A DNA stretch of 64,000 bases from Archangium violaceum (GTDB lineage Bacteria > Myxococcota > Myxococcia > Myxococcales > Myxococcaceae): contig NZ_CP069396.1 in NCBI RefSeq assembly GCF_016887565.1, positions 5,624,001 through 5,688,000 on the forward strand. The letters are read 5' to 3'. This document shows positions 7,834-46,145 of this stretch, piece after piece. The translations under genes were made by a program, and so were the position numbers. Below the pieces are notes generated by a model, which worked only from the letters and a program-made list of their open reading frames with translations, had not been told where the DNA came from and did not search any database. Numbering within the stretch: position 1 is the first letter of the stretch; each line of letters begins with the position of its first letter.

Positions 7834-7903
7834 TCTCACATCCAGAAGGCAAATGGGACGGCGGGAGGGCATCTTGCGGTCGAACTTTCAGGAGAGGTGC
7901 CCC

Positions 7904-8869
7904 ATGCGGAAGCTCATCGTGTTGTCGTTGCTGTTCACCGCGTGCGCGTCGTTGCCCCCGGCGGCGCCGCATGCCTTCGTGCCCTCGCCAGCCCCGGGCG
8001 CGCCGATCCAGGTGTGCTGGATCGACACGGGGGGCGTGACGGTGCCGGGAGGGTACGGCGCGGGCGGCTCCACCAAGGCCGCCACCTGGGAGGTCACCTC
8101 CGCGGCGCTCGTCATCCGCCACCCGAAGGGCGACCTCGTGCTCGACACCGGCATCTCCCCCCACGCGCAGGAGGAGCAGCGGGAACTGGGCGCCTGGGGA
8201 CGCTTCACCTTCTCGCAGACCGCGGGTCGCAACGCACCCCGGCGGAACTTGAAGGAGGCCCTCACCGCGCTCGGGGTGACCCGGCCGAAGGCGCTGCTGC
8301 TCTCTCACGTGCACGCCGATCATGCCGGCGGGGTGGCGTCGCTGCCGGACGTGCCGGTGTGGCTGGCCGCCGAGGAGGAGCAGCTCATCGAAGCGGAGCT
8401 GGAGCACCCGCGCGGGGTGGCGCTCCCCGCGCATGCTCGGGCCTTGAAGGGCCGCATGGTGCCCATCCCCTTCGCGGCGGAGCCGTACGCGAACTACGAG
8501 GCCCGCTTCGACGTCTTCGGCGACGGCTCCGTGGTGGTGGTGCCGACCTTCGGGCACACACCGGGCAGCGTGGCGACGTTCGTGAACGTGTCACCGGCCC
8601 AGCGCTTCGTGCACGTGGGGGATCTCATCAACCTGCGGGAATCCATCGAGCGGAACGTGGGGAAATCGTGGCTGATGCGGCGGCTCACCGACGAGGACTC
8701 CGCGCGCACCCAGGCGGAGGTGGCGAAGCTGGTGCAGCTCCACGCGCGGGATCCGGAATTGCTCATCCTGCCCGCGCACGATCGCAGGGCCTTCGTGGAG
8801 CTCTTCGGCGCGGACGAGGGTGGGGTGCCGCCGTGCATTGGCACACCGCCGCGGCCATCAGGGGGCTGA
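7904..8869 (+). CDS. Metallo-beta-lactamase-fold lipoprotein, N-acyl homoserine lactonase-like
   Basis: Start at ATG 7904, chosen because GGAGAGG (7891-7897) is well placed and the product then begins with a lipoprotein signal (MRKLIVLSLLFTAC). 321 residues. The zinc site is plain: H135-V-H137-A-D139-H140 (SHVHADHAGG), then GHTPGS with its His, HVGDLIN with the bridging Asp, and AHDRR near the end. VLDTGISPHA and the ILPAHD end are typical of the AHL lactonase (AiiA-like) branch of the fold. An outer-membrane or periplasmic lactonase or other ester/lactone hydrolase is likely. Its divergent LysR neighbour at 6874-7833 is a probable regulator. Confidence 0.85.
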   Translation: MRKLIVLSLLFTACASLPPAAPHAFVPSPAPGAPIQVCWIDTGGVTVPGGYGAGGSTKAATWEVTSAALVIRHPKGDLVLDTGISPHAQEEQRELGAWGRFTFSQTAGRNAPRRNLKEALTALGVTRPKALLLSHVHADHAGGVASLPDVPVWLAAEEEQLIEAELEHPRGVALPAHARALKGRMVPIPFAAEPYANYEARFDVFGDGSVVVVPTFGHTPGSVATFVNVSPAQRFVHVGDLINLRESIERNVGKSWLMRRLTDEDSARTQAEVAKLVQLHARDPELLILPAHDRRAFVELFGADEGGVPPCIGTPPRPSGG

Positions 8870-18915: not shown

Positions 18916-19281
18916 TCAAGGCTTGGGACGCGGCGGGGCCACCGCAAGGCGGCGCGGGCGAGCGCTTCGGGAAGCGATGCCCCGGACGATGGCTCTCGCC
19001 GGGGACGGAGGCCTCAGGAGGCTGACGTGGGCCTGACGCAGGCGGCGCCTTCGGCGTGCGGCGAGCGCAGCCGTAAGGCCGAGCAAGTAGGCAATCATGC
19101 CCGCCGGTTCCGTCGCGGACGGCAGCGTGCAGCCGCACGAGCCGCTCCCATGCGGATTGTTTCCGTGATCGCCCTTGCAGCCCTCATCGGTCTCTCCGTC
19201 GCAATCATTGTCAGCCTCGTCGCCGCAGACCTCCGGTCCTGGCGCGCCCGCTACGGCGCTGCAGGCCGTGCTGCCTCCCCG
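18916..19281 (-). pseudogene. C-terminal relic of a MopE-type, MYXO-CTERM-like surface protein
   Basis: The minus-strand frame between stops at 19282-19284 and 18916-18918 reads PGPEVCGDEADNDCDGETDE and GCKG, then GSGSCGCTLPS, then a hydrophobic AGMIAYLLGLTAALAA and RRRRR. The first part is the MopE-like Cys/Asp calcium-binding repeat; Cys, transmembrane helix and Arg cluster are the layout of the MYXO-CTERM sorting tail. There is no start codon before the motif, and the frame runs about 35 residues past the Arg cluster where genuine tails stop. It is therefore the truncated, degraded end of a cell-surface gene. Confidence 0.6.
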
Positions 19282-19339
19282 TCACAGAGGGGGAGGGGGC
19301 TTGTTCGCCGCGTGCTGTATCCCGTATTCAGCTGCTCGC

Positions 19340-20518
19340 ATGTCTCGCACTCTTCTCGTTGCCTTCGTCCTGCTGCTCTCCACAGTCCCCGGCTCCGTGC
19401 TCGCCGCCGAGGGCTCCACCTGGGGTACCACCTTCCCCGCGGATGCCCTGGCGACGCACCTCGGCGACACGCCGGCCCGCTACCTGCTGGTGCCCGCCGG
19501 GAGCGACGCGCCGGAGCTCTCCCAGGCGGAGCTGGCCCTGTCCTCGGCGCTGCGGGCCAGCGGCAAGGCCCTTCTGGTCATGAATGCCCAGGCACTCGGT
19601 CCGGTGGCGCAGTTGGATGACGCCTCCATCGTCCAGCGTGGCGCGGGCTTCCCCGTGGATCGCGTGATGGTGCTGCGGCTCTTCCCGGATGCCTCGGGCG
19701 CACTGACCCAGGCGGTGGTGACCCTCTATGACACGGCAGGCCAGTCGCGTGGCTCCTTCTCCGCGGTGGCGGGGACGGCGCTCGCCGCCAGGACCCAGGC
19801 GCCCCAGCAACAGGTGGCCGCCACGCCCGCGCCGATGGCCCCTGTCAGGCCCGCTCCGAAGGCGCCCGCTCCGCCGACCGTGCCGAATGCGAATCCGACG
19901 GAGCAGTACGAGCAACAGTACATCGGCTTCGACGAGCTCATCGCCGTGAGCTCGGGGACCGGCGCGGTGGTGTCCACGTGGACCGTGCCCTACGTCGGCA
20001 AATTCAAGAGGCCGCTCGAGGGTGACGCCCTCTACAGGCTGGTGGGCCGCAACGACCTGGTGCAGGCCTACCAGGACAAGATGAACACCAAGACGCTCGT
20101 GAGCGTCGTGGGTGGGGCGGCCCTCCTGGGCGGAGGCATCCTCTCCATCTCCGCCCTCGCCGCCAAGGATGAGGACTGTGATGTCTTCTCGTCTGACTTC
20201 AACGCGTGCTTCGATCGCAACCGGCAGCGCTTCAAGGAGAAGACGACGACGTCCCTGGTGGGCATGGGCATTTCGGCGGTGGGCATTGGCGTCCTGGCGT
20301 GGGGCATCGTGATGAGCCCCCACCCGATCACCCCCAGCGAGGCGCGCGAGCTGGCCGACGGCTACAACAAGCAGCTCAAGGCGAACCTGGGGCTCTCCGA
20401 AGAGGGGACGCCCGTCACGCCCGAGCCCACTCCCTCCACTCCCGCCTCCATCCAGGCCCGCCTCTCCCCGGTGCTGGGCCCCAACGGTGCCGGGCTCCTG
20501 CTGAGCGGGAGGTTCTGA
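19340..20518 (+). CDS. Exported hypothetical protein with two hydrophobic helices
   Basis: 392 residues starting at ATG 19340, which gives a good signal peptide (MSRTLLVAFVLLLSTVPGSVLA). The N-terminal half (RYLLVPAGSDAPELSQAELA, VMNAQALGPVAQLDDASIVQ, VDRVMVLRLFPDASGALTQA) resembles the TolB-N/FlgO-like modules used to compute activity of secreted proteins. A Pro/Ala-rich linker at about 150-185 leads to two glycine-rich hydrophobic helices (LVSVVGGAALLGGGILSISA; SLVGMGISAVGIGVLAWGIV) flanking a loop with CDVF...ACFDRN. This layout is common in myxobacterial proteins of unknown function. Probably membrane or periplasmic; no function assigned. Confidence 0.75.
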   Translation: MSRTLLVAFVLLLSTVPGSVLAAEGSTWGTTFPADALATHLGDTPARYLLVPAGSDAPELSQAELALSSALRASGKALLVMNAQALGPVAQLDDASIVQRGAGFPVDRVMVLRLFPDASGALTQAVVTLYDTAGQSRGSFSAVAGTALAARTQAPQQQVAATPAPMAPVRPAPKAPAPPTVPNANPTEQYEQQYIGFDELIAVSSGTGAVVSTWTVPYVGKFKRPLEGDALYRLVGRNDLVQAYQDKMNTKTLVSVVGGAALLGGGILSISALAAKDEDCDVFSSDFNACFDRNRQRFKEKTTTSLVGMGISAVGIGVLAWGIVMSPHPITPSEARELADGYNKQLKANLGLSEEGTPVTPEPTPSTPASIQARLSPVLGPNGAGLLLSGRF

Positions 20519-20555
20519 GACGAGTTGAAAGCGAGCGCTCGCGTCACATGTCCAG

Positions 20556-20662
20556 GCTACCATGGGTTTGCGGGGATTCGCTGCGAGGGTTGCAAGCCGG
20601 TAAGGGGTGTCGTCCTTGCCGGTGGGGAGGCGGTCGGAGTCGAGGAACTCAGCGTCAGCCAC
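20556..20662 (-). pseudogene. Possible N-terminal relic of a class I fumarase gene
   Basis: From a GTG at 20660-20662 the minus strand reads ADAEFLDSDRLPTGKDDTPY then RLAT. This resembles the N-terminus of iron-sulfur class I fumarases, where a short F-x-L-KDDTEYYLLT string opens the protein. After about 25 residues the similarity ends and the frame continues as the shadow of the 19340-20518 gene. Only a short stretch supports the call. Confidence 0.25.
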
Positions 20663-20687
20663 GGCTGACGAGGATATCCGGCGCGGA

Positions 20688-20714
20688 TGTCACACGCGCC
20701 GGGCGTCCGGTGTC
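20688..20714 (+). promoter_or_regulatory. Candidate ECF41 sigma-factor promoter
   Basis: TGTCACA (20688-20694) is followed after 16 bases by TGTC (20711-20714). ECF41-type sigma factors are known to use a TGTCACA -35 and a CGTC -10; the -35 is exact and the -10 has one mismatch. The downstream gene starts at 20757, leaving room for a leader with its AGGAGGAG ribosome-binding site. Since the second gene encodes an ECF41-like sigma factor, this is a candidate autoregulated promoter. Confidence 0.6.
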
Positions 20715-20756
20715 TCCATGTCGACGCAATCTCACACGGACACACCAGGAGGAGAC

Positions 20757-21353
20757 ATGACCACGACCAGGATTCCCCCGAAGGAGCTCACCGGGCTTTA
20801 CGGCGCGATGGTGAAGAAGTTCGCTGGCAGGATGTTCGGTCAGGTCCCCGAGTCGCTCGGCGTGATGTGGCACCACCTGCCAGTGCTCAAGGCCAGCATG
20901 GGCTTCGGGCAGAAGCTCCAGAAGTGGGACCAGTGCGACGAGAGCCTGAAGTCGTACGCGCACATGGCGGTGGCGTCGCTGGTGGGCTGCTCGTGGTGCC
21001 TCGACTTCAACTACTTCATGGCCCACAACCACGGGTTGGACGTGGAGAAGGCGCGGGAGATCCCGCGGTGGCGGGAGTCGGACGTATTCACCCCGCTGGA
21101 GCGGGAGGTGCTGGAGTACGCCGAGGCGATGAGCCAGACGCCCCCCACGGTGACCGACGAGATGGTCGCGAGCCTGCTGAAGCAGCTTGGTGCCGCAGCG
21201 GTCATCGAGCTGACCACCGTGATCGGGTTCGCCAACCTGACGACCCGCTCCAACACCGCGCTGGGCATCGAGTCGGAGGGCTTCGCCGCGTCCTGCGGAC
21301 TGAAGCCGCTGGCGCAGCCGAGCGCACGGCCGGGGGTAGCGTCCGCGTCATGA
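20757..21353 (+). CDS. Carboxymuconolactone decarboxylase / AhpD-like protein of an ECF41 module
   Basis: The start at ATG 20757 has AGGAGGAG just upstream; longer in-frame starts exist but lack this site. 198 residues, helical, with the redox motif VGCSWCLDFN (Cys78 and Cys81) that defines the AhpD/CMD family, preceded by SYAHMAVAS and followed by LTTVIGFANLTTRSNTALGI. AhpD-like members use the CxxC pair as a peroxidase or alkyl-hydroperoxide reductase partner. The last codon overlaps the start of the sigma-factor gene (ATGA). This gene order, CMD then ECF41 sigma factor, is the hallmark of ECF41 loci, mainly in Actinobacteria, so horizontal transfer is likely. Confidence 0.9.
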   Translation: MTTTRIPPKELTGLYGAMVKKFAGRMFGQVPESLGVMWHHLPVLKASMGFGQKLQKWDQCDESLKSYAHMAVASLVGCSWCLDFNYFMAHNHGLDVEKAREIPRWRESDVFTPLEREVLEYAEAMSQTPPTVTDEMVASLLKQLGAAAVIELTTVIGFANLTTRSNTALGIESEGFAASCGLKPLAQPSARPGVASAS

Positions 21354-22252
21354 ACACCCCACGAAACACCATGACCGAAGAGGACCCCTTCGTCACCCAC
21401 CGCAGCCTGCTCTTCACGGTCGCCTACGAGATGCTCGGCTCCGCGGTCGACGCCGAGGACGTCGTGCAGGAGACCTGGCTGCGGTGGGCGGACATCGGTG
21501 ACGCGGGTCGGGCAGAGGTGCGCGACCCGCGCGCCTACCTGGTGAGGATCGTCACCCGGCAGGCCCTCAACCGGCTGCGGACGCTGGCCCGCCGCAAGGA
21601 GGAGTACGTCGGCGAGTGGCTGCCCGAGCCGCTGCTCACCAGTCCCGACGTGGCCGAGGACGTCGGGCTCGCGGAGAGCGTCTCGATCGCGATGCTGACC
21701 GTGCTGGAGACCCTCACGCCGGCCGAGCGCGCCGTGTTCGTCCTGCGTGAGGTCTTCGACATGCCGTACGACGAGATCGCGTCGGCGCTCGACAAGACGC
21801 CGGCCGCGGTCCGGCAGATCGCCCACCGGGCGCGGGAGCACGTGGCCGCACGCCGGCCCCGGATGCAGGTCGACCGGACGCAGCAGCAGGCCGTCCTGGA
21901 GCGGTTCCTCGCCGCGGTCAACTCCGGCGACCTGCAGGGGCTGCTCCAGGTGCTCGCCCCCGACGTGGTGCTGGTCGCGGACGGCGGCGGTCTCGCGAGG
22001 GCGGCCCGGCGCCCGATCCTCGGCGCCGACACCGTGGCCACCTTCCTGTCCCGGTTCCCCACGCTCGCGCCCGGTGCGTCGATCGCGACCGTGTGGATCA
22101 ACGGGGCGCCCGCGCTCCGGGTCGACGCCGCCGGCAAGTTCGACACCGCGGTCAGCGTGGTGGTCGAGGACGGCCGGATCACCCGGATCTACGCGATGCG
22201 CAACCCGCACAAGATGGGCCGGCTCGACGAGGAGGCCGAGCTCACCCGGTGA
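21350..22252 (+). CDS. sigJ: ECF41 (SigJ-like) RNA polymerase sigma factor with SnoaL-type C-terminal domain
   Basis: 300 residues. Sigma region 2 is at about 13-80 (LLFTVAYEMLGSAVDAEDVV, QETWLRW), the linker holds the ECF41-typical WLPEP (90-94), and sigma region 4 is at about 112-166 (TLTPAERAVFVLREVF, AAVRQIAHRAREH). The C-terminal 120 residues form a SnoaL_2-like domain, with DGGG at 211-214 and a final NPHKM (from 285) close to the ECF41 NPDKL signature. This fused domain replaces an anti-sigma factor and tunes activity. The start overlaps the stop of the AhpD-like gene. The SigJ name follows actinobacterial relatives and is approximate. Codon choice and wording of the protein look actinobacterial. 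Confidence 0.92.
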   Translation: MNTPRNTMTEEDPFVTHRSLLFTVAYEMLGSAVDAEDVVQETWLRWADIGDAGRAEVRDPRAYLVRIVTRQALNRLRTLARRKEEYVGEWLPEPLLTSPDVAEDVGLAESVSIAMLTVLETLTPAERAVFVLREVFDMPYDEIASALDKTPAAVRQIAHRAREHVAARRPRMQVDRTQQQAVLERFLAAVNSGDLQGLLQVLAPDVVLVADGGGLARAARRPILGADTVATFLSRFPTLAPGASIATVWINGAPALRVDAAGKFDTAVSVVVEDGRITRIYAMRNPHKMGRLDEEAELTR

Positions 22253-22313
22253 CGTCCGCGACGGCCGGTCCGGGCATGGATCGGTCCGTCACGGCGTTGG
22301 TCCCGGTGTGCAC

Positions 22314-22484
22314 GTGTACGACGCGGTGGTGATTGGCGCCGGCCAGGCCGGCCTGTCGGCGTCGTAGTCCGCCGTCCAGTTCCTGGGGGAGCTGGCGCCG
22401 GTGACCGACACCGTCTGGGTGACCCGCCGGGAGCCGGTGTGGCGCGACCACTTCGACGAGCAGGCCGGGCGCGACGCGGGGGCT
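22314..22484 (+). pseudogene. Internally deleted FAD-dependent oxidoreductase
   Basis: From a GTG at 22314 the frame reads YDAVVIGAGQAGLSAS, the dinucleotide-binding N-terminus of a flavoprotein, then hits TAG at 22365-22367. The same frame continues with SAVQFLGELAPVTDTVWVTR and REPVWRDHFDEQAGRDA, which in intact relatives lies some 150 residues further in. So one deletion joined the first 17 codons to a middle piece, and the rest is lost after about 22484. Oxidoreductases are the third typical partner of ECF41 loci, and this one follows the sigma gene by 61 bases. Confidence 0.65.
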
Positions 22485-22636
22485 CACTGCTCGGGCGGCC
22501 CCTGCCAGCGGCCCTCCTCGGCCCCTCCGCTCCAGCCCTCACCCTCCACACGGCCTCTATTCCGCCTATGCGCCGGCGGCGCCATGGGGCAGGTCTTCAG
22601 CGCGGGGAAGCCCCGGGTGGGCTGCGCGGCACACGC

Positions 22637-22658
22637 TTGACTCTCCCCCAGGGGCAGA
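22637..22658 (+). promoter_or_regulatory. Candidate MerR-type promoter/operator
   Basis: A -35-like TTGACT (22637-22642) runs directly into an imperfect dyad, CTCTCCCCCAGGGGCAGA (22641-22658). MerR-family regulators bind such dyads in overlong promoter spacers. A good -10 is not visible. The first gene of the unit starts at 22708 and the second encodes a MerR-family protein, so autoregulation is plausible. A transcript starting here also argues against the upstream ATG at 22675. Confidence 0.35.
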
Positions 22659-22707
22659 CCGCCACCCTCCACGCATGTCACCCAGATACAGGTCGCAGAG
22701 GAACCTC

Positions 22708-23775
22708 ATGGCGGTAGCGCTTGGAGCACTCGTCTTGCTGGTGGGCGTGGCGGTGGGAGCGTGGTGGTGGATGGGGCGCGCGCTCTTCCAGCCGGGCACC
22801 GTGGAGCAGACGCTGGCCGCGCGCGGCGAGACACTGGAGGTGCCCCCCGGACAGCGGGCCGACGCTTCGGAATGGCAGGTGGCGCCGGGCGTGCGGCTTC
22901 ACCAAATGGCCGTGGGCGAAGGAAGGGATGTCGTCGTCGTGCACGGCGGCCCGGGCCTGCCTCCAGCAGCGCCGTGGCGCGCGGCCGTCCTCACCGGCGA
23001 CACCCTGCGCTGGCACTTCTACGACCAACGCGGCTGTGGTGCCTCCTCGCGGCCGCTCACCCACGCTCCAACGGGCGGAACGTGGCAGGCCATGCGGGAG
23101 GTGGAGGCACGACTGGGACTTGCCGCTCAACTGGCGGACCTCGAGCGCATCCGACGTCTGCTCGGACGTGAGCGCCTCACGCTGGTGGGGCACTCCTTCG
23201 GAGCCCTGGTGGCCGCGCTCTACGCGGCGGAGTGGCCAGAGCGGGTGGAGGCCCTCGTGCTGGTGGCGCCCGCGCCGCTGGTGACGATGCCCGCTGGCGA
23301 CGGCGACCTCTTCACGCAGGTGCGGGCCCGACTGGACGCGGAAGGACAGCGCGCGCTGGAGGTGTGGATGGAGCACACCTTCGACCTCCCCGCGCGCCTG
23401 AAGGACGACGAGGCCCGTCTCGCCGAGCACTTCGCGGGCTTTGGACCTCTCTACGCCCAGGCCATGCGGCGGGAGCGTCCCGGAGCACGGCCGCCCGGCT
23501 CCGGCGCTCCCGGAGGCTTTCTCTCCCTGGGGCTCTACCTGAGCCTGGGACGCCACCACGACTGGAGCGACTGGCTGCGCCGGGTGCGCGCGCCCACCCT
23601 CGTCATCCACGGAGCCGAGGACCTTCAGCCGCGTTCCGCCACCGCTCGCGTGGTACAAGCCCTGCCCCACGCGCGGCTGGTGGAACTGGCGGGCAGCGGG
23701 CACTTCCCCTTCGAGGAGCAGCCCGAGGCCTTCGCGGCCACGCTGCGCGCCTTCCTCGTGGAGGTGGAGCGGTGA
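22708..23775 (+). CDS. Membrane-anchored alpha/beta hydrolase (proline iminopeptidase-like)
   Basis: The ATG at 22708 is preceded by AGAGG at good spacing; an ATG at 22675 has none. 355 residues. An N-terminal helix (MAVALGALVLLVGVAVGAWW) suggests a membrane anchor. The catalytic part has VVVHGGPG (oxyanion), HFYDQRGCGASSRP, nucleophile elbow LVGHSFGALVA (Ser163), acid in VIHGAEDLQPRSA and base in GSGHFPFEEQPE. HGGPG and DQRGCG are typical of the S33 proline iminopeptidase/prolyl oligopeptidase-like branch, but general esterases also use them. It overlaps by four bases the MerR-family gene that follows, forming one operon. Confidence 0.87.
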   Translation: MAVALGALVLLVGVAVGAWWWMGRALFQPGTVEQTLAARGETLEVPPGQRADASEWQVAPGVRLHQMAVGEGRDVVVVHGGPGLPPAAPWRAAVLTGDTLRWHFYDQRGCGASSRPLTHAPTGGTWQAMREVEARLGLAAQLADLERIRRLLGRERLTLVGHSFGALVAALYAAEWPERVEALVLVAPAPLVTMPAGDGDLFTQVRARLDAEGQRALEVWMEHTFDLPARLKDDEARLAEHFAGFGPLYAQAMRRERPGARPPGSGAPGGFLSLGLYLSLGRHHDWSDWLRRVRAPTLVIHGAEDLQPRSATARVVQALPHARLVELAGSGHFPFEEQPEAFAATLRAFLVEVER

Positions 23776-24608
23776 GTGGATTGCTGTACGCCATCGGAGA
23801 GGTGTCGCGCATCACCGGCGTGAGCGTGAAGGCGCTGCGCCTCTACCAGGAGAAGGGTCTGCTCCAGCCCTCGCGCGTGGACCCCTCCTCCGGCTACCGC
23901 TACTACACCGAGCACGACATCGCCCAGGCCCACACCCTGCGCGCGCTGCGCGACCTGCGGCTCTCGCTGGAGGAGATTCGCGGGGTGCTCGCGGAGCTGG
24001 ACCAGGGCGCCTCGCTCGCCGAGCAACTGGGGCGGGTGCGCGCCCGGCTCGCCGAGGAAGCGGCCAGCGCGCAGCGGGCGGTGATGGCCCTGGACACGCT
24101 GCTGCGGCACCAGGCCCGGGCGGAGGCCTACCTGCGCGCGCCCCCGCCGCTCGTGGAGCGGTGGCTGCCATCGGTCCGCGTCGCCGTGCACCGCGCCCGG
24201 GGGCGCTACTCGGACGCGGCGGTGGTCTTCCCACGGCTGCTGGCCGCGTGCGGCCCCCACGTGGCCGGTGCTCCCTTCTGCCTCTTCCACGAGGCGGAGT
24301 ACCGCGAGGACGACGCGGACATCTCGTGGTGCGTGCCCCTGGCGCCCGGGGCACGCCCGGAGGGCGTCCACGTGGAGGAGCTGCCAGAGGTGCAGGCGGC
24401 CACGCTCGTTCATACCGGACCGCCCGACTCGGTGGGCCCCTCCTGGGCGCGCCTCTTCGCCCACCTCCATGCCCGGGAGCGAGCCCCGGCCGTTCCCCTG
24501 CGCGAGACGTACCTGCGCGTGGGCGCGACGGATGCGGCGCCCGCCTCCTCGTGGCTGACCGAGCTCGCGCTGTCCTGGGAGGAGAACGGGAGCCGGGGCA
24601 CTCCCTGA
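23772..24608 (+). CDS. MerR-family regulator with GyrI-like effector domain
   Basis: It starts at GTG 23772, overlapping the hydrolase stop (GTGA); 278 residues. Residues about 5-75 are the MerR winged helix (YAIGEVSRITGVSVKALRLY, SGYRYYTEHDIAQAHTLRAL), then a helical dimerisation arm (about 80-120), and the C-terminal half is GyrI-like (VERWLPSVRVAVHRARGRYS, CLFHEAEYREDDADISWCVP), as in BmrR and TipA relatives that sense hydrophobic drugs. It probably regulates its own operon through the dyad at 22641-22658. The inducer is unknown; the coupled hydrolase may act on it. Confidence 0.9.
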   Translation: MSGLLYAIGEVSRITGVSVKALRLYQEKGLLQPSRVDPSSGYRYYTEHDIAQAHTLRALRDLRLSLEEIRGVLAELDQGASLAEQLGRVRARLAEEAASAQRAVMALDTLLRHQARAEAYLRAPPPLVERWLPSVRVAVHRARGRYSDAAVVFPRLLAACGPHVAGAPFCLFHEAEYREDDADISWCVPLAPGARPEGVHVEELPEVQAATLVHTGPPDSVGPSWARLFAHLHARERAPAVPLRETYLRVGATDAAPASSWLTELALSWEENGSRGTP

Positions 24609-24700
24609 GGTGGGGCCACGCGGGGTCCGAATCCGATTTCGTTGACTTCACCTCGGAGCAACGCCGCCCTCCAGAAACCCCATCGGAGGGGGAAGCTCCA

Positions 24701-24805
24701 TCAGAACGCCTCGCTCACGTTCAGGTAGAAGCCCAGTTCCGAGCCGTAGGCCACGTCGAGCCGGATGTTCACGGGGGCGTCCTCGAGCGGAGCGAACCGC
24801 TCACC
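24701..24805 (-). pseudogene. C-terminal fragment of an outer-membrane beta-barrel protein
   Basis: The minus strand ends with [20 protein letters not shown] followed by GFYLNVSEAF and TGA at 24701-24703. Alternating hydrophobic residues and a terminal Phe are the outer-membrane barrel signature recognised by BamA; the string resembles the end of surface-antigen (D15/BamA-like) proteins. Upstream (higher coordinates) the frame turns into unrelated sequence and no start is found, so only the last strands of a barrel survive. Confidence 0.45.
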
Positions 24806-24949
24806 CCTCCTGCTCCCTTCACGTACGCCAAGCCCCGCCGCCGGCCTCCACACCTCACAACCAGGGGCGCACGGTGCTCCAGGGAGGTTCGTGGGAGCAT
24901 AACGGTAACGTGTGCCCTGGCGAGAGGTGTGGCTGGGGAGGGGAAGGTG

Positions 24950-25065
24950 GAGGAGCGCGGGTGGGAGTACCGGCGGAGGCGGCCGGAGGGGACGGTGCTG
25001 TACGAGGCGGTGAGGGACCACCTCGCCACGTTGCTGGTGGCGGTGAGCGAGGTAGGGCGCGGCCC
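24950..25065 (+). mobile_element. N-terminal relic of an IS91-family transposase
   Basis: The plus strand encodes [20 protein letters not shown] followed by [13 protein letters not shown]. This is the start pattern of IS91/ISCR transposases (Y.PR.PE.T.LY..V..HLE.FL), which precedes their zinc-binding domain. The similarity stops at about 25065; zinc finger and catalytic Tyr region are missing. It is therefore a truncated scar. The same gap holds an outer-membrane protein relic. Confidence 0.45.
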
Positions 25066-25197
25066 ACGGCCTGAGTGCGAGCAGCGCCGCCGCCCTGGAG
25101 GCGGAAGGGCCCGCGGACCCTGCCCCAATCCAAGCCGATTTCCCGCACAATCCACGCTCTGGTGACGGGCACCGTCGCTCTTTACCGTCTGGACATC

Positions 25198-26418
25198 ATG
25201 ACGGACTCAACGACACCTCGTCGCCGTGTTCTGGTGGTTGGACTCGGCATCAGCGGCATCGCCACGGCCATCCGGCTTCACAAGCTCGGCTGGGAGCCCG
25301 TGCTCATCGAGCGGGCACCCGAGCGCCGCAAGGGCGGCTACTTCATCGGCCTGTTCGGTACCGGCCAGGCGTCCGCCAGGCGGCTCGGGGTGCTGGACAC
25401 CCTGGTCGATCGCAATTCCCCGCTGATGACGACCTACGAGGTCGACCGGGCCAATCATCGGACCCGGGGCATGTCCTTCGTGGACGCGCCCGGCGCGCCA
25501 CTCCCGCTGCTGCGCGGCGACGTGGAAAACTCCTTGTTCTCCGCGTTGCCGAAGGACGTGGAGGTCCGCTTCGCGACGGTTCCCACCCGGATAGAGCAGG
25601 GCGCGCAGGGGGCCGACGTCACGCTGACCCACACGAAGAGCGGCACGAGCACGACCGAGCGCTTCGACCTCGTGGTGGGCGCTGATGGCATGCGCTCGAC
25701 CGTCCGTCAGCTCGTCTTTGGTCCGCACGAGAACTTCCTGCACCCGCTGAACTACATGATCGCCGCCTGCGTCCTGCGCAACCCCGTGCAGGGCTACGCC
25801 ACGCACGAAGGACTGGTCCTGGCCGAGGCGGGAAGGTCGGCATGGGTCTTTCCCTTCGCGAATCACAACCCCACCTTGCTCTTCTCCTACCGCGTCGATG
25901 ACGTGGCCGCGCAGTTCCGCGGCCGTCCCATCGAGTCGCTGCGCAAGGCGTACGGACCGGAAAAGGCGGGGTCGGTGCTGAGCCATCTGCTCAATGAGTT
26001 CGAGACCGCGGACGAATATCTGTTCGACTCGACCAACCATGTCCGCATGCCGAGCTGGCACAAGGGGCGGGTCGTGCTGGTGGGCGATTCCGCGTGGTGC
26101 TTGACCCTGTATTCAGGGATGGGCGTGTCGACCGGTCTGGCCGGGGGGGAGCTCCTGGGTGACATGCTGGAGAAGCATCCAGACGACATGGAACGCGCGC
26201 TGACCCGGTGGGAGGAGAAGCTGCGCCCGTTCATCGAGGACATGCAGCGCGACTCGCTGAAAGCGAGACAGCTCTTCACTCCGGCCAACGAGGCGCAGCG
26301 AGTCTTTCGCGCGGTGAGCATCCGCCTCATGAGCAATCGCCTGACGGGCCCGCTCGTCAAGAAAGTGATGCGCGACAAGGACTTCAAGGCGAAGATGATC
26401 GACATCGTCGCGCAGTAG
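25198..26418 (+). CDS. FAD-dependent monooxygenase (TetX/PHBH-like)
   Basis: 406 residues from ATG 25198. The three landmarks of class A flavoprotein monooxygenases are present: the N-terminal GxGxxG fold ([20 protein letters not shown], ending in acidic VLIERAP), the central DG motif [15 protein letters not shown], and the GD motif [18 protein letters not shown]. No signal peptide. Such enzymes hydroxylate aromatic compounds or antibiotics using NAD(P)H and O2; the substrate is not evident. It stands alone, downstream of an IS91-type relic and with no partner gene, so acquisition by transfer is possible but not shown. Confidence 0.88.
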
Positions 26419-27876: not shown

Positions 27877-28386
27877 ATGAGTGGGAGCGGGAACATTCCG
27901 ATGACCCCCTCGGGTCTGCGGAAGCTGAAGGCGGAGCTGAAGCACCTTCAGACCGTCGAGCGCGGGAAGATCTCCAAGGAGATTGAGGTGGCGCGCGCGC
28001 ACGGGGACCTGCGCGAGAACGCCGAGTACCACGCGGCCAAGGAGAAGCAGTCGCACATCGAGGGCCGCATCCTGGACCTGAACGACTGGATTGCCCGGGC
28101 CGAGGTCATCGACCCCAGCAAGCTGGGCGGGGACAAGGTCGTCTTCGGCGCGACGGTGGACCTGTTGGACGTGGAGACGGACAAGACGGTCTCCTACCGC
28201 CTGGTGGGCGAGCTGGAGGCGGACCTGAAGAAGCGGTGGATCGCCGTCACCTCGCCGGTGGCGCGGGCGCTGATCGGCAAGAAGGTGGGCGACGTCGCCA
28301 CGGTGCAGAGCCCGGGCGGCGTGCGCGAGTACGAGGTCCAGGAGATCCGCTTCGACGATCCCCAGGACGAGTCCGCCGAGAGCTGA
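27877..28386 (+). CDS. greA: Transcription elongation factor GreA
   Basis: 169 residues from ATG 27877, with GGAAGGA upstream. The N-terminal coiled coil carries the basic/acidic pattern of Gre factors (MTPSGLRKLKAELKHLQTVE, KISKEIEVARAHGDLRENAE, YHAAKEKQ), and the acidic tip residues (D and E in GDLRENAEY) that reactivate backtracked RNA polymerase are present. The C-terminal domain has VVFGATVDLLDVETDK, YRLVGELEADL and ALIGKKVGDVATVQSPGG. Length is close to the usual 158. GreA stimulates cleavage of the nascent RNA. It precedes recG by 91 bases and may be co-expressed. Confidence 0.95.
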   Translation: MSGSGNIPMTPSGLRKLKAELKHLQTVERGKISKEIEVARAHGDLRENAEYHAAKEKQSHIEGRILDLNDWIARAEVIDPSKLGGDKVVFGATVDLLDVETDKTVSYRLVGELEADLKKRWIAVTSPVARALIGKKVGDVATVQSPGGVREYEVQEIRFDDPQDESAES

Positions 28387-28477
28387 CGCGCCGCCTTGAG
28401 GGCGAACAGCCGGGGGAGCGGGCACCAGCTCGCTCCCCTGTGTCGTTCTGGTGGCGGAGTGCAGTCCTCGCCTTAGG

Positions 28478-31153
28478 ATGAGACGTTCGGATCCGCCTGT
28501 GAACCACCCGCTCGCCAGCCTCGTCGGCCCCCTGAAATATGCCTGCCGGAGTGACTTCGCCCATCTGTCGACGGTGAAGGACCTGCGCGGTCTGTTGGAG
28601 CGCACGCTGGCGGGAGCCTCGGGGGTGGACGCGGAGGCGCTGAAGCACCTGAGAGCGGCGTTGCCGCACGTGGACCATCCGGCGCTGGACAGGCGCAAGG
28701 CGGCGCTGCGGAGGGTGGTCGCGGGCCTGAAGCTGAGCGGAGTCCCACTTCCGGACGAGCTGGTCCAGGTGGCCAACGCCCCCACCCCCATCACCCCTCT
28801 CCCCCCGGGAGAGGGACGGGGTGAGGGTCGTCCCGAGGTGGTCCCCGAGTGGAAATCGACGGCCCCCGTCCCTCCGCCCCCCGGGAGCAAATCCGCGTCC
28901 CCCGCGCGAACCCTCGCGAGACCCACCCCTCCGGCCGCGGAGCCAAAGAAGCCCGAGCCGGCGGAAAAACCCTCGGACAAGCGCAAGAAGCGGGTGGCCA
29001 AGGGCCAGGAGGAGTCTCGGGCGGAGGCGAAGCTGCTGTCGATCGCGCCACGCTCGGGGCCCCTGGCGATTCCGCTGAAGACGATGGGCAAGAGGCTGGG
29101 CCCGCGACTGCTGGCGGCGCTGAACAAGAAGGGGCTCAAGCGGGTGGGGGACATCCTCTTCCTGCTGCCGCGCTGCTACGAGGATCGGCGCAAGCTGCTG
29201 AGCATCGCGGAGCTGATGCCCGGAGAGCGGGGCGTGACGGTGGGCGAGGTGAAGCTGGCGGACTTCGTGCCGAGCCGCACGGGCAAGCGCTACTTCCGGG
29301 CCGTGGTGGCGGACCGCTCGGGGAGCATCGCCGCGACGTACTTCAACGCGGGCCCGTGGCTCAAGCAGCGCTTCCCGGTGGGCAAGCGGCTGGTGCTGTC
29401 CGGAGAGGTGCGGGCCTCGCTGTCGGGGCGCGAGATGGCGCACCCGGAGATAGAACCGGCGGAGGACCTCGAGGGGTCCTCGGTGCACTTCAACCGGATC
29501 GTCCCGGTGTACCCGGGCTTCGAGCGCGGAGACCAGCGGATGTTCCGGGAGCTGGCCTCGGTGGTGAGCGAGTCCTACTCGAACCACGTGGAGGAGCCGC
29601 TGCCGGAGGGCCTGCGCAAGAAGCTGGGCCTGATGACGCTGCCCGAGGCGCTGCGGGCCATCCACTTCCCGTCGGAGGACGCGGATCCGGAGATGCTGGA
29701 CCGGCACCTGAGCCCGGCGCACCGGAGGCTGGCCTTCGACGAGCTGTTCTTCCTGCAACTGGGCGTGGGGCTGAAGCGGCAGGGGGTGAAGCAGGAGAAG
29801 GGCATCACCTTCGACATCTCGGAGCCGAGGCTGGAGAAGGCGCGCGGGGCGCTGCCGTTCCAGCTCACGGGGGCGCAGAAGAAGGTGATTGGCGAGGTCG
29901 CCCAGGACATGGGCCGCCCCGAGCCGATGAACCGGCTGGTGCAGGGCGACGTGGGCTCGGGGAAGACGGCGGTGGCGGTGGTGGCGTCGCTGCTGGCGCT
30001 GCAGGACGGCTACCAGGTGGCGGTGATGGCGCCCACGGAGATCCTCGCCGAGCAGCACGAGCGGACGTTCCGCAAGCTGCTGGAGCCGCTGGGCTACAAG
30101 GTGGGGCTGGTGAGCGCGGCGGGGACGGCGAAGCGCAAGCGGGAGATCCGCGACGCGGTGGCGCGCGGGGAGATCCACCTGGCGGTGGGCACGCACGCGC
30201 TCGTCCAGGAGGACATGGGCTTCCAGAAGCTGGGCTTCGTGGTCATCGACGAGCAGCACCGCTTCGGCGTGCTGCAGCGGCACACGCTCATGAGCAAGGG
30301 CGTGCACCCGGACGTGCTGGTGATGACGGCGACGCCCATTCCGCGCACGCTGGCGATGACGCTGTACGGGGACCTGGACGTGTCCATCATCGACGAGCTG
30401 CCGCCAGGGCGCACGCCGGTGAAGACGCGCGTCTTCAACGACAAGCAGCGGGCGCGCGTGTACGAGGCCGTGGCCTCCGAGGTCCAGAAGGGCCACCAGG
30501 CCTACGTGGTGTATCCGCTGGTGGAGGAGTCGGAGAAGCTGGACCTGGAGGACGCCACTCGCGGCGCCGACAAGCTGCGGCAGGTGTTCCCCGGCGTGGA
30601 GGTGGGCCTGCTCCACGGGCGCATGAAGCCCGAGGAGAAGGACCTGGTGATGGACGCCTTCCGGTCCGGCACCATCCAGCTGCTCGTCTGCACCACCGTG
30701 GTGGAGGTGGGAGTGGACGTGCCGAACGCGTCGGTGATGGTGATCGAGTCCGCGGAGCGCTTCGGCCTGTCACAGCTGCACCAGCTGCGCGGACGCGTGG
30801 GCCGCGGCGCGGCGGTCAGCTACTGCTACCTCGTGGCCAACCTGGCGCGCTCGTCCATGGTGTCCTCCGAGCGGCTCGGCGTGATGGAGCACAGCACCGA
30901 TGGCTTCGTCATCGCGGAGAAGGACCTGGAGATCCGCGGACCGGGCGAGTTCCTCGGCACCCGGCAGAGCGGCATGCCAGAGCTGGCGGTGGCGAACCTC
31001 GCGCGGGACGGGGATCTGCTGTCGCTGGCGCAGCAGGAGGCTCGGAGCATCCTGGCGAGAGATCCCCTGCTGCAGGCCCCCGAACATCAGGGACTGGTGA
31101 AGGCGCTCGAGGAACGCTGGGAGGGCCGGTTGGCCCTCGCCAGGGTGGGGTAG
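28478..31153 (+). CDS. recG: ATP-dependent DNA helicase RecG with extended N-terminus
   Basis: 891 residues from ATG 28478 (a GTG at 28499 is possible). RecG motifs: wedge/OB domain (LLPRCYEDRR, GERGVTVGEVKLADF), Walker A VQGDVGSGKTAVAVV, Walker B variant FVVIDEQHRFGVLQR, motif III MTATPIPRTLAMTLYGDLD, and the C-terminal helicase motifs VCTTVVEVGVDVPNA and HQLRGRVGRG. RecG remodels stalled forks and Holliday junctions. The usual length is about 690; here about 200 extra residues precede it: a helical domain (15-95) and a Pro/Lys-rich linker (about 100-185). Part of the linker (residues about 106-117) is encoded by a dispersed 34-bp palindromic repeat. Confidence 0.95.
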   Translation: MRRSDPPVNHPLASLVGPLKYACRSDFAHLSTVKDLRGLLERTLAGASGVDAEALKHLRAALPHVDHPALDRRKAALRRVVAGLKLSGVPLPDELVQVANAPTPITPLPPGEGRGEGRPEVVPEWKSTAPVPPPPGSKSASPARTLARPTPPAAEPKKPEPAEKPSDKRKKRVAKGQEESRAEAKLLSIAPRSGPLAIPLKTMGKRLGPRLLAALNKKGLKRVGDILFLLPRCYEDRRKLLSIAELMPGERGVTVGEVKLADFVPSRTGKRYFRAVVADRSGSIAATYFNAGPWLKQRFPVGKRLVLSGEVRASLSGREMAHPEIEPAEDLEGSSVHFNRIVPVYPGFERGDQRMFRELASVVSESYSNHVEEPLPEGLRKKLGLMTLPEALRAIHFPSEDADPEMLDRHLSPAHRRLAFDELFFLQLGVGLKRQGVKQEKGITFDISEPRLEKARGALPFQLTGAQKKVIGEVAQDMGRPEPMNRLVQGDVGSGKTAVAVVASLLALQDGYQVAVMAPTEILAEQHERTFRKLLEPLGYKVGLVSAAGTAKRKREIRDAVARGEIHLAVGTHALVQEDMGFQKLGFVVIDEQHRFGVLQRHTLMSKGVHPDVLVMTATPIPRTLAMTLYGDLDVSIIDELPPGRTPVKTRVFNDKQRARVYEAVASEVQKGHQAYVVYPLVEESEKLDLEDATRGADKLRQVFPGVEVGLLHGRMKPEEKDLVMDAFRSGTIQLLVCTTVVEVGVDVPNASVMVIESAERFGLSQLHQLRGRVGRGAAVSYCYLVANLARSSMVSSERLGVMEHSTDGFVIAEKDLEIRGPGEFLGTRQSGMPELAVANLARDGDLLSLAQQEARSILARDPLLQAPEHQGLVKALEERWEGRLALARVG
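28795..28828 (+). repeat. Dispersed 34-bp palindromic repeat, copy 1 (inside recG)
   Basis: The copy starts CCCTCTCCCCCCGGGAGAGG and ends GGGTGAGGGT. The core CTCTCCC...GGGAGAG can form a hairpin. Copies in the same orientation lie at 45464-45497 and 55584-55617. This one is translated in frame into the linker of RecG. Confidence 0.8.
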
Positions 31154-31163
31154 GCCGGAGCGC

Positions 31164-31451
31164 TCAGCCGACGGCGAGCAGCGCCTGCTCGGCGGCGGGC
31201 TCCGACGCGGCCCAGAGCCACTCGGAGAGCTCGGCCGTGCGGCTGGTGTAGAGCTCGTTCGGATCCAACCCGAGCTCCCGGCACTTGCCGTGGAAGAGGG
31301 CCTCACCACCGCGGACGTGACAGTGGTTGATGAAGTCCTGCACCGTCTCGAGCGCTGGGTGCTCCTCCAGGAAACGCCGCAGCGCGAGGTTGGTGCCGGA
31401 CTCCTGGGAGTGCTGGACGACGGGGGTGAACATGTTTCTCTGGGTATTCAT
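31164..31451 (-). CDS. Small hypothetical cytosolic protein
   Basis: 95 residues, with a GGAGGGC ribosome-binding site just before the ATG at 31449-31451. Helical and acidic: VVQHSQESGTNLALRRFLEE, HPALETVQDFINHCHVRGGE, ALFHGKCRELGLDP. No signal or membrane helix. Family not recognised. The 170-base gap upstream is unusually AT-rich and contains a bulged inverted repeat (31522-31553). It converges on recG, the two stops being 10 bases apart. Confidence 0.65.
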   Translation of the reverse strand: MNTQRNMFTPVVQHSQESGTNLALRRFLEEHPALETVQDFINHCHVRGGEALFHGKCRELGLDPNELYTSRTAELSEWLWAASEPAAEQALLAVG

Positions 31452-31521
31452 GCGCCCTCCGGATTCGCGCGGAGTGTAGCTTTTCCGCGCTTCGTCACTC
31501 CAGCGTGACCTCCGTTTTTTC

Positions 31522-31553
31522 CGAAGTTTCGAGAGAAAGTTCTCTCAACTTCG
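31522..31553. promoter_or_regulatory. Bulged inverted repeat upstream of the small gene
   Basis: Outer arms CGAAGTT (31522-31528) and AACTTCG (31547-31553) enclose inner arms GAGAGAA (31531-31537) and TTCTCTC (31540-31546). It lies in an AT-rich island 70 bases upstream of the gene at 31164-31451, between that gene's start and the terminator at 31566-31597. It could be an operator or a second, weaker terminator. Confidence 0.45.
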
Positions 31554-31565
31554 TTGCAAATAAAA

Positions 31566-31597
31566 AACGGTGGCCCCACTGAAATGGGGCCACCGTT
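31566..31597 (-). terminator. Strong intrinsic terminator
   Basis: Arm AACGGTGGCCCCA (31566-31578), loop of six, and the exact complement (31585-31597). Read on the minus strand, the 13-bp stem is followed by TTTTTT, the classic Rho-independent form. It sits 27 bases after the stop of the Ig-repeat lipoprotein gene and ends the M4 peptidase operon. Confidence 0.92.
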
Positions 31598-31623
31598 CGT
31601 CCGGCGAACCGCGAGGGTTCAGC

Positions 31624-33657
31624 TCACTGGGCGGTGAGGGCGCCCACGGCCACGTCGATGGGGCCCAGGGTGCCACTCCCGGGCAGCGCATGGGCCTTGG
31701 TGACCCGGAGCTCGACCGGGCCCGAGGGCAGCGTGGGGCCCGTCTTCAGGTCCAGCGCCACCGAGAGCACGGGCCCGGTGAAGGACACCGCCGGAGCGGC
31801 CGTGCCCTTCTGGAACGCGCCCACGAGCAGGGTGCTGTCCTTGGCGTTGCTCCTGAAGAGCTGGGGGCCGCTGCCCAGATCGAAGGCGTGGTTGAGCGCG
31901 TACTCGGAGTCCCCGGAGGCCAGCTTCGCCCAGCTGGCGCGGGGCTGGTCCGCCGAGAGCGTCAGATCCACGCCCCGGCCCGCCGTCCCCGCGGGCGCCA
32001 GCAGGTCCAGCACGAGACGGTCGTCCGTGGACAGCGCGGCGTTCTTGACCAACCTCCAGCCGGTGCCCTGCGGGTCCTCGTAGGAGATGCCCGTGGCGGC
32101 CGGCACGGTGACGGTGGCGGAGGCCGTCTTCGTCGGGTCGGCCACGCTGGTGGCCACCACCGTGAACCGGCCAGCGGCGGCGGAGGGCGCGGTGTAGAGA
32201 CCGTCGTTGGAAATCGTTCCGCGGCTGGAACCGCCACCCACGGACCAGGTCACTCCCGTGCGCGTGGTGCCCTTCACGGTGGCCGTGAAGGAGGTCGACT
32301 CCCGGGCGGAGAGCGTCTTGGACGTGGGCGTGAGGGAGATCTCCACGTCGCGGACGGTGACGGCGATGGTGTCCCGCTTGGTCGTGTCCGTCACGCTGGT
32401 GGCGACGACGGTGTAGGTGCCCTTGCGGTTGGGAGCCGTGTAGACGCCCGTGTTGGTGATGGTGCCGTTGCTGGCACCACCCTCCACGGACCAGGTCACC
32501 GCCGTGCTGCCCGTGGTGCCGGTGACCTCCGAGGTGAAGGTCGCGGTGGCGCCCTGGTCGAGCGTCGCCGTGTCCGGGGTGGCCGTCACGTTCACCGCCA
32601 CTACCGTCACCTGGGCGGTGGCCTTCTTCGAGGGATCGGCCACGCTGGTGGCGACGACGGTGTACGTGCCACCGCGGGAGGGCGCCGTGTACACGCCCGA
32701 GCCGTCGATGGAGCCGTTGTTGGCACCGCCCTCGACGGACCAGGTCACCGCCGTGCTGCCCTTGGTGCCCGTCACCGAGGCGGAGAACGTCAGGCTGCCC
32801 GTGGAGTGGGTGCTCGGCTGGGCCGGGGTGAGGCTCACGGCGATGGGACGCACCGTCAGGGTGGCGCTGCCCTTCTTCGTGGGATCGGCCACGCTGGTGG
32901 CGAGGATGGTGTACGTGCCCGCGGTGTTGGGAGCCGTGTAGATGCCGGAGCTGGTGATGGAGCCGTTGTTGGCGCCGCCTTCCACGGACCAGGTCACCGC
33001 CGTGGTGGGGGTGCCCGTCACGCTCGCGGAGAACTCCACCACCGCGCCCTGATCCACCGTGTCCGTTCCAGGCGTGAGCGCGATCGTCACCGGCACCACG
33101 TTCACCCGGAGGGTGCCCTTGCGACGCGGGTCGGCCACGCTGGTGGCGACGAGGGTGTAGGTGCCCGGCGTGGTGGGCGCCGTGTACACGCCCTGCTCGG
33201 TGATGGAGCCACCGGCCGCGCCCTCCACGAGGGACCAGGTGACCGCGGTGTCATCGGCCCCCGTCACCCGGGCGGTGAAGGTGGCGCTGCCCGCGGTGGG
33301 GACGGTCGCGGCCGTGGGCTCGATGGCGACGACCACGGCCTCGAGGACCGTGATGGTGGCCGTGTCCTTCTTCGAGGTGTCCACCGCGTTGGTGGCCACG
33401 ACGGTGTACGTGCCCGCCGTGGTGGGCGCGGTGTAGACGCCCGAGCTGGTGATGGTGCCGTTGCCGTCACCCCCCTCCACGGACCAGATGACGCGCGGCT
33501 CCTTGGCCTCCTGGACGGTGGCGGAGAGCGAGGTGCTGTCACCCGCCAGTACCGAGGCGGTCTTCGGCGAGACGGTCACCGGGCCCGCGTCCGGGTCGCC
33601 GCAGGCGACGAGCGTTCCGAGCAGGAGCGGAACAATGAGTTTGATCAACGTTTTCAT
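31624..33657 (-). CDS. Lipoprotein with six Ig-like repeats and a beta-sandwich C-terminal domain
   Basis: 677 residues with a lipoprotein signal (LLLGTLVACGD). Six BIG2-like repeats of about 80-85 residues fill residues about 25-530, each with V(T/E)WSVEGG, G(V/I)YTAP, and GTYTVVATSVADPTKK. The last 145 residues differ: DDRLVLDLLAPAGTAGRGVD, STLLVGAFQKG, PVLSVALDLKTGPTL, PVELRVTKAHALPG; this beta-sandwich pattern is cohesin-like in outline, but the match is weak. It starts three bases after the stop of the dockerin-bearing M4 peptidase gene and ends before a strong terminator, so the two form one operon. A surface-anchored binding partner is plausible. Confidence 0.85.
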   Translation of the reverse strand: MKTLIKLIVPLLLGTLVACGDPDAGPVTVSPKTASVLAGDSTSLSATVQEAKEPRVIWSVEGGDGNGTITSSGVYTAPTTAGTYTVVATNAVDTSKKDTATITVLEAVVVAIEPTAATVPTAGSATFTARVTGADDTAVTWSLVEGAAGGSITEQGVYTAPTTPGTYTLVATSVADPRRKGTLRVNVVPVTIALTPGTDTVDQGAVVEFSASVTGTPTTAVTWSVEGGANNGSITSSGIYTAPNTAGTYTILATSVADPTKKGSATLTVRPIAVSLTPAQPSTHSTGSLTFSASVTGTKGSTAVTWSVEGGANNGSIDGSGVYTAPSRGGTYTVVATSVADPSKKATAQVTVVAVNVTATPDTATLDQGATATFTSEVTGTTGSTAVTWSVEGGASNGTITNTGVYTAPNRKGTYTVVATSVTDTTKRDTIAVTVRDVEISLTPTSKTLSARESTSFTATVKGTTRTGVTWSVGGGSSRGTISNDGLYTAPSAAAGRFTVVATSVADPTKTASATVTVPAATGISYEDPQGTGWRLVKNAALSTDDRLVLDLLAPAGTAGRGVDLTLSADQPRASWAKLASGDSEYALNHAFDLGSGPQLFRSNAKDSTLLVGAFQKGTAAPAVSFTGPVLSVALDLKTGPTLPSGPVELRVTKAHALPGSGTLGPIDVAVGALTAQ
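32095..33590. repeat. Tandem Ig-domain coding repeats
   Basis: Six imperfect units of about 250 bases lie head to tail within the lipoprotein gene. Strings such as gaccaggtcaccgccgt and gtgtaggtgcc recur in most units, showing expansion by internal duplication. Such DNA is prone to recombination and copy-number change. Confidence 0.8.
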
Positions 33658-33660
33658 GGC

Positions 33661-37890: not shown

Positions 37891-38033
37891 ATGGGGAACT
37901 CCACCGGACTGCATCAAGGGAGAGTCCCGGTCGGATGACACTTGCTGGGGGGAGCGTCAGCGGCCGGGGATGCTCGCGTCGCTGGAGTTGGAGGGGTCCA
38001 ACTGGCCAGCGCAGCGGGGGCGAGCATACCCAA

Positions 38034-38055
38034 ACGTTAATTAATTTAAAATCGC
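38034..38055 (-). promoter_or_regulatory. AT-rich island in the promoter region of the M4 peptidase operon
   Basis: The gap 37891-38184 is about 300 bases long and contains no gene. It holds a marked AT-rich stretch (gttaattaatttaaaat) about 150 bases upstream of the peptidase start, exceptional in this GC-rich window. It may be an UP-like element or a binding site; no clear -35/-10 pair was found. Confidence 0.3.
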
Positions 38056-38184
38056 ACCGGACCCCCGAGGCGGCCGATCGGCCACACACAAAATCAAGGG
38101 TGTCCTGAATTCCGGTTGGATTCTCAGCCGCCGGAATCCCGTGAGGTCTGGAATCCCGCCGAGCCGTGCGCGATCAGGCCGCGC

Positions 38185-41010: not shown

Positions 41011-41135
41011 GCGAGGGAGCGTGACAGGTTGACCACGCGACCGCCCGTCACCGCTCCGTTCCAGAGATCGACAGTGAACGTGCACCGTCGAGATTCTCAC
41101 GTCCCGACACGCCCAGCGTTGGATGCCCTACACGG

Positions 41136-42338: not shown

Positions 42339-42394
42339 GGCCGTGAAAGGGATAACACGCCGTGGAGGCGCGGGAGTCCGTGGAGGGGGCGGGG

Positions 42395-42757: not shown

Positions 42758-42966
42758 GAGCGGCTCTCCCGTGCCGATTCCCACCACGCGACTCGCGGAA
42801 GCGCAAGCGGTGAGTGGATTTCCAGCGCGCTCCCACCTCTTTGGGGCCCCCTCGGGGAAGCGACGGCCGTGCCCGCGCCAGCCCTCCTGACCGTCACTCC
42901 CTTTGTTCACATGGCACCAACGGGCAGGAGGCCACTTCCTGGATTCATTCCCATGGTCAACACACC

Positions 42967-46139: not shown

Positions 46140-46145
46140 TACACA

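Follow-up and report, generated by a model that had tools for sequence, protein, structure and literature searches.

An ECF41 CMD-sigma factor unit in Archangium violaceum, probably acquired from a Nocardioides-type actinobacterium, that has kept its promoter and lost its flavoprotein gene

Is the ECF41 sigma factor locus of Archangium violaceum a working regulatory unit or the remains of one, and from which lineage did it come? A sequence-only reading of the window (the whole stretch of 64,000 nt analysed, G000:C1:5624001-5688000, in a 13.2-Mb genome on a single contig) had described a foreign-looking redox-response unit, comprising an AhpD-like gene, an ECF41 sigma factor gene and a decayed flavoprotein gene, whose enzymatic output was held to be lost. 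The CMD gene, the sigma gene and the flavoprotein remnant are all present on the + strand where that reading had placed them. The coordinate at which it begins, 20688, coincides with the opening base of a promoter motif; the promoter, as well as a fumarase relic and an IS91-type end, were absent from it. The features, with locus L006 (Nocardioides Iso805N) as the reference, are as follows:

20588..20662, - strand: class I fumarase relic, its first 25 codons (VADAEFLDSDRLPTGKDDTPYRLAT), divergent; by similarity to the L006 fumarase
20688..20714, + strand: ECF41-type promoter, TGTCACA-N16-TGTC, starting 69 nt 5' of the CMD start codon
20757..21353, + strand: CMD/AhpD-like gene, 198 aa, with CSWC as its CxxC (PF02627)
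21350..22252, + strand: ECF41/SigJ-type sigma factor with a C-terminal SnoaL_2-like domain, 300 aa (NCBIfam SigX4, SigJ)
22308..22364, + strand: flavoprotein relic, N-terminal 19 codons (VHVYDAVVIGAGQAGLSAS), 19 of 19 residues as in the L006 flavoprotein
22365..22367, + strand: TAG stop at the deletion junction of the flavoprotein relic, from the sequence
22368..22485, + strand: flavoprotein relic, codons 172 to ~210, right of a 453-nt deletion; by similarity to L006
22481..22574, + strand: putative 3' terminus of an IS91-type (Y2 transposase) element, a repeat shared with Y2_Tnp loci

The CMD protein matches PF02627 (Pfam) at 36.8 bits against a cut-off of 23, and is predicted to act as a redox enzyme of the CxxC type within the AhpD/CMD superfamily. 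The sigma protein contains Sigma70_r2 and Sigma70_r4_2 above the Pfam cut-offs, and SnoaL_2 just above it (28 bits versus 27), the latter corresponding to the C-terminal extension of ~100 aa; it is also recognized by the NCBIfam models SigX4 (350.4 bits, cut-off 323.25) and SigJ (311.4 bits, cut-off 271). In an alignment of nine sigma rows with the window entered twice (A1), the WLPEP motif (W90-P94), a named ECF41 linker motif (PMC3426412), is invariant, as are the N, P, and K of the NPHK segment and all but the second position of the DGGG segment. The CMD and sigma genes overlap by ATGA, an overlap common to 14 of 14 myxobacterial copies. The family matches and the overlap confirm the AhpD-like gene and the ECF41 sigma factor with its SnoaL-type domain, on one strand, as described from the sequence alone. 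No anti-sigma gene lies beside the sigma gene: downstream are the flavoprotein relic and genes for an alpha/beta hydrolase and a MerR regulator, and upstream the CMD gene followed by an ORF (19340-20515) that matches no Pfam family. In passages of PMC8999054, the SnoaL-type extension is said to inhibit by contacting the linker, and activation to follow from a conformational change.

The published ECF41 target motif is TGTCACA-n16-CGTC (PMC3426412), from which the window promoter departs by one base in its -10 element (TGTC for the consensus CGTC); TGTC and TGTT are also found among the putative ECF41 targets tabulated in that paper. The motif occurs 5' of the CMD gene in 59 of 59 copies compared, at -58 to -84, ending in TGTC in 54 and in CGTC in five. 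An extended form of it has a single hit with zero mismatches in the 13.2-Mb genome, namely the window promoter, and the eight further hits at one mismatch, as against seven for a reversed control pattern, indicate no wider regulon. Passages of PMC3426412 bear out CMD proteins, oxidoreductases, and epimerases as partners of ECF41 sigma factors, and give the CMD gene as the only detectable ECF41 target in both organisms tested. The loss of an enzymatic output gene was hence an overstatement, the published target gene itself being intact here with its CxxC and its promoter. Compared with L001 (Pyxidicoccus caerfyrddinensis), dN/dS is 0.23 for the CMD gene (198 codons) and 0.24 for the sigma gene (290 codons), which, with the ECF41 motif before the CMD gene, suggests that the locus is likely a live, self-amplifying two-gene unit that has lost a dispensable third gene. 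That the window unit is itself dying, its regulator and CMD gene being out of use, is an unlikely alternative: its third gene is dead, and in G047 of the same genus (L058, G047:C1:5808000-5819000) the CMD gene breaks off after 121 codons, with transposase-like fragments behind it (one IS5-like by eye) and no sigma gene beside it, but in the window both frames are open over their full length, the CxxC, WLPEP, and DGGG are kept, the promoter is perfect and dN/dS against L001 is 0.23-0.24.

The history of the locus is recorded at its two edges. The intact reference for the third gene is the L006 flavoprotein (6902-8017, 372 aa; Pyr_redox_3 and Pyr_redox_2, Pfam), with which the first 19 codons of the window relic agree throughout; codons 172-205 show 73.5% identity over 34 residues (E 6e-9), and similarity at the DNA level reaches ~22485 (blastn, 75% to L006 7415-7534). 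Where L006 has 456 nt at the junction the window has three, such that 453 nt are missing with the frame kept; these three nucleotides are TAG, and no fused flavoprotein product is therefore read. The second piece runs on into unrelated DNA, and the 3' part of the gene is replaced by the IS91-type end (22481-22574). Thus, the two pieces and the in-frame deletion of the sequence-only reading stand, and the joined product does not, given the stop at the junction; comparison with L006 and the intact CMD and sigma frames also uphold its view of a dead third gene beside a retained regulator and AhpD-like gene. The partner that it proposed to look for elsewhere has no close substitute: at E<=1e-5, the best-scoring match in the 145 genomes of the order shows 36% identity, and the own genome, the relic aside, matches only at 27% and 38%. 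Beside the other myxobacterial copies compared, no remnant of a flavoprotein gene was detected, leaving the relic to the window alone. Across 41 actinobacterial loci (L005-L017 and L102-L129, some of which extend just ~750-1500 bases beyond the unit, and two of which, L007 and L129, encode the same proteins and may come from one genome), an intact flavoprotein gene lies directly 3' of the sigma gene in only four (L005, L006, L108, L113); the flavoprotein is therefore an optional extra of the ECF41 unit.

On the left, the stub at 20662-20588 (- strand) is 72% identical (E 2e-7) to the N-terminal part of the L006 protein encoded divergently beside the CMD gene, a fumarase by Pfam (PF05681, PF05683). 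This fumarase gene is of full length and divergent beside the CMD gene in three of the 41 actinobacterial loci (L006, L108, L110), two of which (L006, L108) have both the fumarase and the flavoprotein neighbour. The same stub is found in L001/G094 (one and the same assembly, from the window's family) and G109, its length being 25-28 codons across these and the window; the match in G047 is weak (E 0.17), and at the protein level none is seen in the other seven of the ten distinct myxobacterial copies. A gene of full length in L006, L108, and L110 that is a stub in the window, L001/G094, and G109 points to transfer from the actinobacteria. The dN/dS values of the relics against L006 (0.49 over 25 codons and 0.46 over 33) are not clearly above those of the live genes in the same comparison (CMD 0.28, sigma 0.39), and the relics are too short to prove relaxed selection.

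Phylogenetic analysis was performed on the sigma factors (63 rows, 58 different) and the CMD proteins (57 rows, 52 different, midpoint root), the actinobacterial rows being taken from the family of L006 (the best 30 of 146 matching genomes) together with the nearest sigma relatives. The closest named relatives of the window sigma gene are from Pyxidicoccus, Myxococcus, and Citreicoccus. The 14 myxobacterial sigma rows, which reduce to ten distinct sequences as four pairs are identical, form one clade (100/97), in which the window is sister to the other 13 (100/98). Both nodes hold in a second tree, with a partial copy (L150) added and four distant rows removed, at 100/98 each. In that tree the clade sits on a polytomy of actinobacterial rows where the bootstrap is not settled, leaving its exact sister group open; the forks that nest it in the first tree have bootstrap values of 81-85. 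In the CMD tree, a starred 30-row clade (100/98), itself nested inside two larger starred clades, takes in all 15 myxobacterial rows, and its other 15 rows are from Nocardioidaceae. Here the window, the actinobacterial L112 and the other 14 myxobacterial rows meet in an open fork (94/72), so that the myxobacterial rows are no clade of their own. The window CMD protein shares 71-94% identity with the remaining myxobacterial members of the clade and at most 82% with actinobacterial copies, except for L112 with 89%. L112 (G353, Nocardioidaceae) is a mosaic ECF41 unit, its CMD protein being 89% but its sigma factor only 73% identical to those of the window, which suggests that the donor may have been mosaic. 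In codon usage, the sigma gene lies within the Nocardioides range and outside that of 25 window genes, and the CMD gene lies between the two ranges (the models were scored on their own training genes, chosen by an ORF heuristic). The placement of the CMD rows among Nocardioidaceae, the fumarase stub, and the codon usage of the sigma gene agree with the actinobacterial origin suspected from the protein texture, and the donor appears to have been a soil actinobacterium of the Nocardioides type.

Sigma matches at E<=1e-60 are found in 18 of the 145 genomes of the window's order, viz. ten with this clade, G143 with another copy, and seven at 43-47% identity, the loci of which served as the outgroup. 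At >=70% identity 11 of the 145 genomes match, with the ten carrying this clade spanning four genera; in the window's own genus the gene is present only in G000 among six genomes. In the L006 family, by comparison, matches at E<=1e-90 occur in 146 of 294 genomes. G143, from a different family of the order, has two CMD-ECF41 copies ~4.6 kb apart (L028, L036; G143:C1:3576626, 3581186), which group apart from the other myxobacterial copies and represent a second, separate import that was then doubled.

Such a separate entry raises the alternative of at least two imports from related actinobacteria, with the window being one and the Pyxidicoccus/Corallococcus/Citreicoccus-type copies another. This would suit the restriction of the flavoprotein relic to the window, the place of L112 in the open fork of the CMD tree, and the N-terminus of the window sigma factor, which is short as in the actinobacterial copies, whereas the other 13 myxobacterial rows (L001-L004, L019-L027) have 14-37 codons between the sigma ATG and the aligned start. 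We consider it quite improbable, with the starred clade of all 14 sigma rows, the fumarase stub common to the window, L001/G094, and G109, and the ATGA overlap of all 14 copies standing against it. The window, which has none of the extra N-terminal codons, has the least altered form besides being the earliest branch.

The flanks were compared across 12 loci of ~11-18 kb each (a repeat run covered the plus strand only). Those of the window match none of the 11 other myxobacterial loci. Neighbourhoods are shared by L001 with G094 and, on the left, with G109; by L004 with G055; and by G058 with G069, whose downstream block recurs in L002 and, inverted, in L003. Between the window and G109, which belongs to another genus, the DNA of the unit shows 91-92% identity, as against 64-82% among the matches listed between window positions 28001-48000 and G109, a baseline that is one 20-kb stretch and may favour conserved genes; the contrast fails within the genus, where pieces of G047 are 65-92% and its CMD fragment 89% identical. 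The cross-genome DNA search, in which two candidates per genome were scored, was used for presences and not for absences. The sequence-only reading had named all-myxobacterial relatives in vertical descent as the outcome that would speak against transfer: the closest relatives are indeed myxobacterial, but the descent is not simply vertical because the CMD rows lie among Nocardioidaceae, the window flanks are unmatched in the 11 loci, and the unit stands at 91-92% against 64-82% in G109. An ancient myxobacterial gene pair that was passed down vertically and disappeared from most lineages, its similarity to actinobacteria being deep, is hardly tenable: the single sigma clade, the myxobacterial closest sequences, and the shared neighbourhoods are on its side, but the presence of the clade in just ten of 145 genomes and four genera, the G109 identities, the unmatched window flanks, and the donor fumarase stub, which by itself already disfavours it, tell against it.

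The limits of similarity between copies are themselves informative. Over 61 myxobacterial locus pairs (those with a shared adjacent flank excluded), similarity starts 17-186 bp before the CMD start, and in 36 of the 61 at 65-90 bp, i.e. at the promoter; it ends 1469-1611 bp after the CMD start, near the sigma stop, in 50 pairs with the cut G047 copy excluded. We tentatively raise the possibility, which we rate at somewhat under even odds, that the promoter, the CMD gene, and the sigma gene constitute a portable regulatory unit of ~1.55 kb that passed from one phylum to another and afterwards continued to move among myxobacteria. As the sigma factor would need no anti-sigma partner and would read its own promoter, such a unit would work wherever it landed, with accessory genes like that of the flavoprotein being lost.

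The 94-bp repeat at 22481-22574 has at least 40 matches in its own genome, the window's included and some of them partial (40 of 149 candidates scored), and is present in many genomes of the order. It occurs on the same locus as four of the six Y2_Tnp (PF04986) matches of the genome, the other two being without it, and at three of those four it lies 414-455 bp beyond the Y2_Tnp match on the same strand; we take it for the 3' end of IS91-type elements. Members of the IS91 family transpose by a rolling-circle mechanism and have defined ori and ter ends. An Rfam search of window positions 19000-26000 at gathering thresholds returned no matches, the repeat included. The repeat had also been considered as part of a toxin cassette, as one copy lies by an ORF of G045 that is of polymorphic-toxin type by eye, and this was dropped given the Y2_Tnp domains beside other copies. 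The hydrolase and MerR DNA to its right recurs at 99% identity in G047, where the matching stretch starts at the last base of the repeat, 22574, with different sequence in front of it; since the similarity starts exactly at that base, the junction is the end of the element and not a chance edge. This stretch (22574-24619), coding for the alpha/beta hydrolase and a MerR-GyrI-like regulator, shows 80-89% identity to various other genomes of the family, and may be a second pair of movable genes. Beyond the MerR gene to the right, 24794-25064 contains pieces resembling other stretches beside such repeats. Elsewhere in the genome, IS91-type fragments are clustered, with at least eight matches between 3.325 and 3.408 Mb, and window positions 32103-33534 show strong direct self-similarity (68-72%) at repeated offsets of ~250 bp.

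Taking these observations together, we propose, with a probability of roughly 0.85, that a Nocardioides-type chromosome segment, reaching from inside the fumarase start through the CMD, ECF41 sigma, and flavoprotein genes, entered the myxobacterial gene pool, in which the core of promoter, CMD gene, and sigma gene was kept while the flavoprotein gene was dispensable and died. The sigma factor might be freed by a signal that its SnoaL-type C-terminal domain senses, and would then drive RNA polymerase to TGTCACA-N16-TGTC, the promoter of its own unit, for the production of more CMD protein and more sigma factor. The flavoprotein gene of the window would have been killed by the 453-nt deletion and by the loss of its 3' part at the IS91-type terminus; from the sequence we infer the autoregulation in this host, the redox function, the order in which things happened, and the part played by the IS91-type element. 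Counting against this proposal are the open sister group, L112 in the CMD fork, the absence of the stub from seven of ten copies, and the dN/dS of the relics.

According to passages of PMC3426412 and PMC8999054, ECF41 sigma factors are widespread and their natural signals are not settled. We did not find this unit reported in the parts of the literature on ECF41, IS91, and myxobacterial horizontal transfer that were covered, which is no proof of its absence from print. The locus is a well-resolved case of the known ECF41 CMD-sigma kind and no new kind of system. It offers a readable history of an ECF41 copy, in which the gene order of the donor, the cut at either end, and the kept and dropped parts can be made out, and it delineates a minimal functional unit of promoter, CMD gene, and sigma gene, with the flavoprotein optional, that can be tested in a culturable myxobacterium carrying it.

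Among known systems, the window shares the CMD partner, the TGTCACA-n16 motif, WLPEP, and the C-terminal extension with the ydfG-ecf41 unit of Bacillus licheniformis and the RSP_0606-ecf41 unit of Rhodobacter sphaeroides (as described in PMC3426412), and its upstream, codirectional CMD gene corresponds to the commonest ECF41 operon layout in the survey of that paper (107 of 373). It differs from both units in the donor relics on its flanks and in the TGTC of its -10 element versus the consensus CGTC. The best solved relative of the window sigma factor is Mycobacterium tuberculosis SigJ (PDB 5xe7), which shares its domain plan at E 6e-45 over residues 12-289, a distant relationship (157 bits); the CMD structures 2gmy, 6ohi, and 6k40 show weak similarity (best 34 bits) across the CMD core, the CxxC region included. 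In gene order the window resembles the Nocardioides three-gene operon (L005, L006, L108, L113), with CMD, ECF41, and flavoprotein genes in the same succession behind the same promoter and, as in L006 and L108, a divergent fumarase gene beside the CMD gene; the flavoprotein gene is intact in those four loci and the fumarase gene in L006 and L108, whereas in the window both are stubs.
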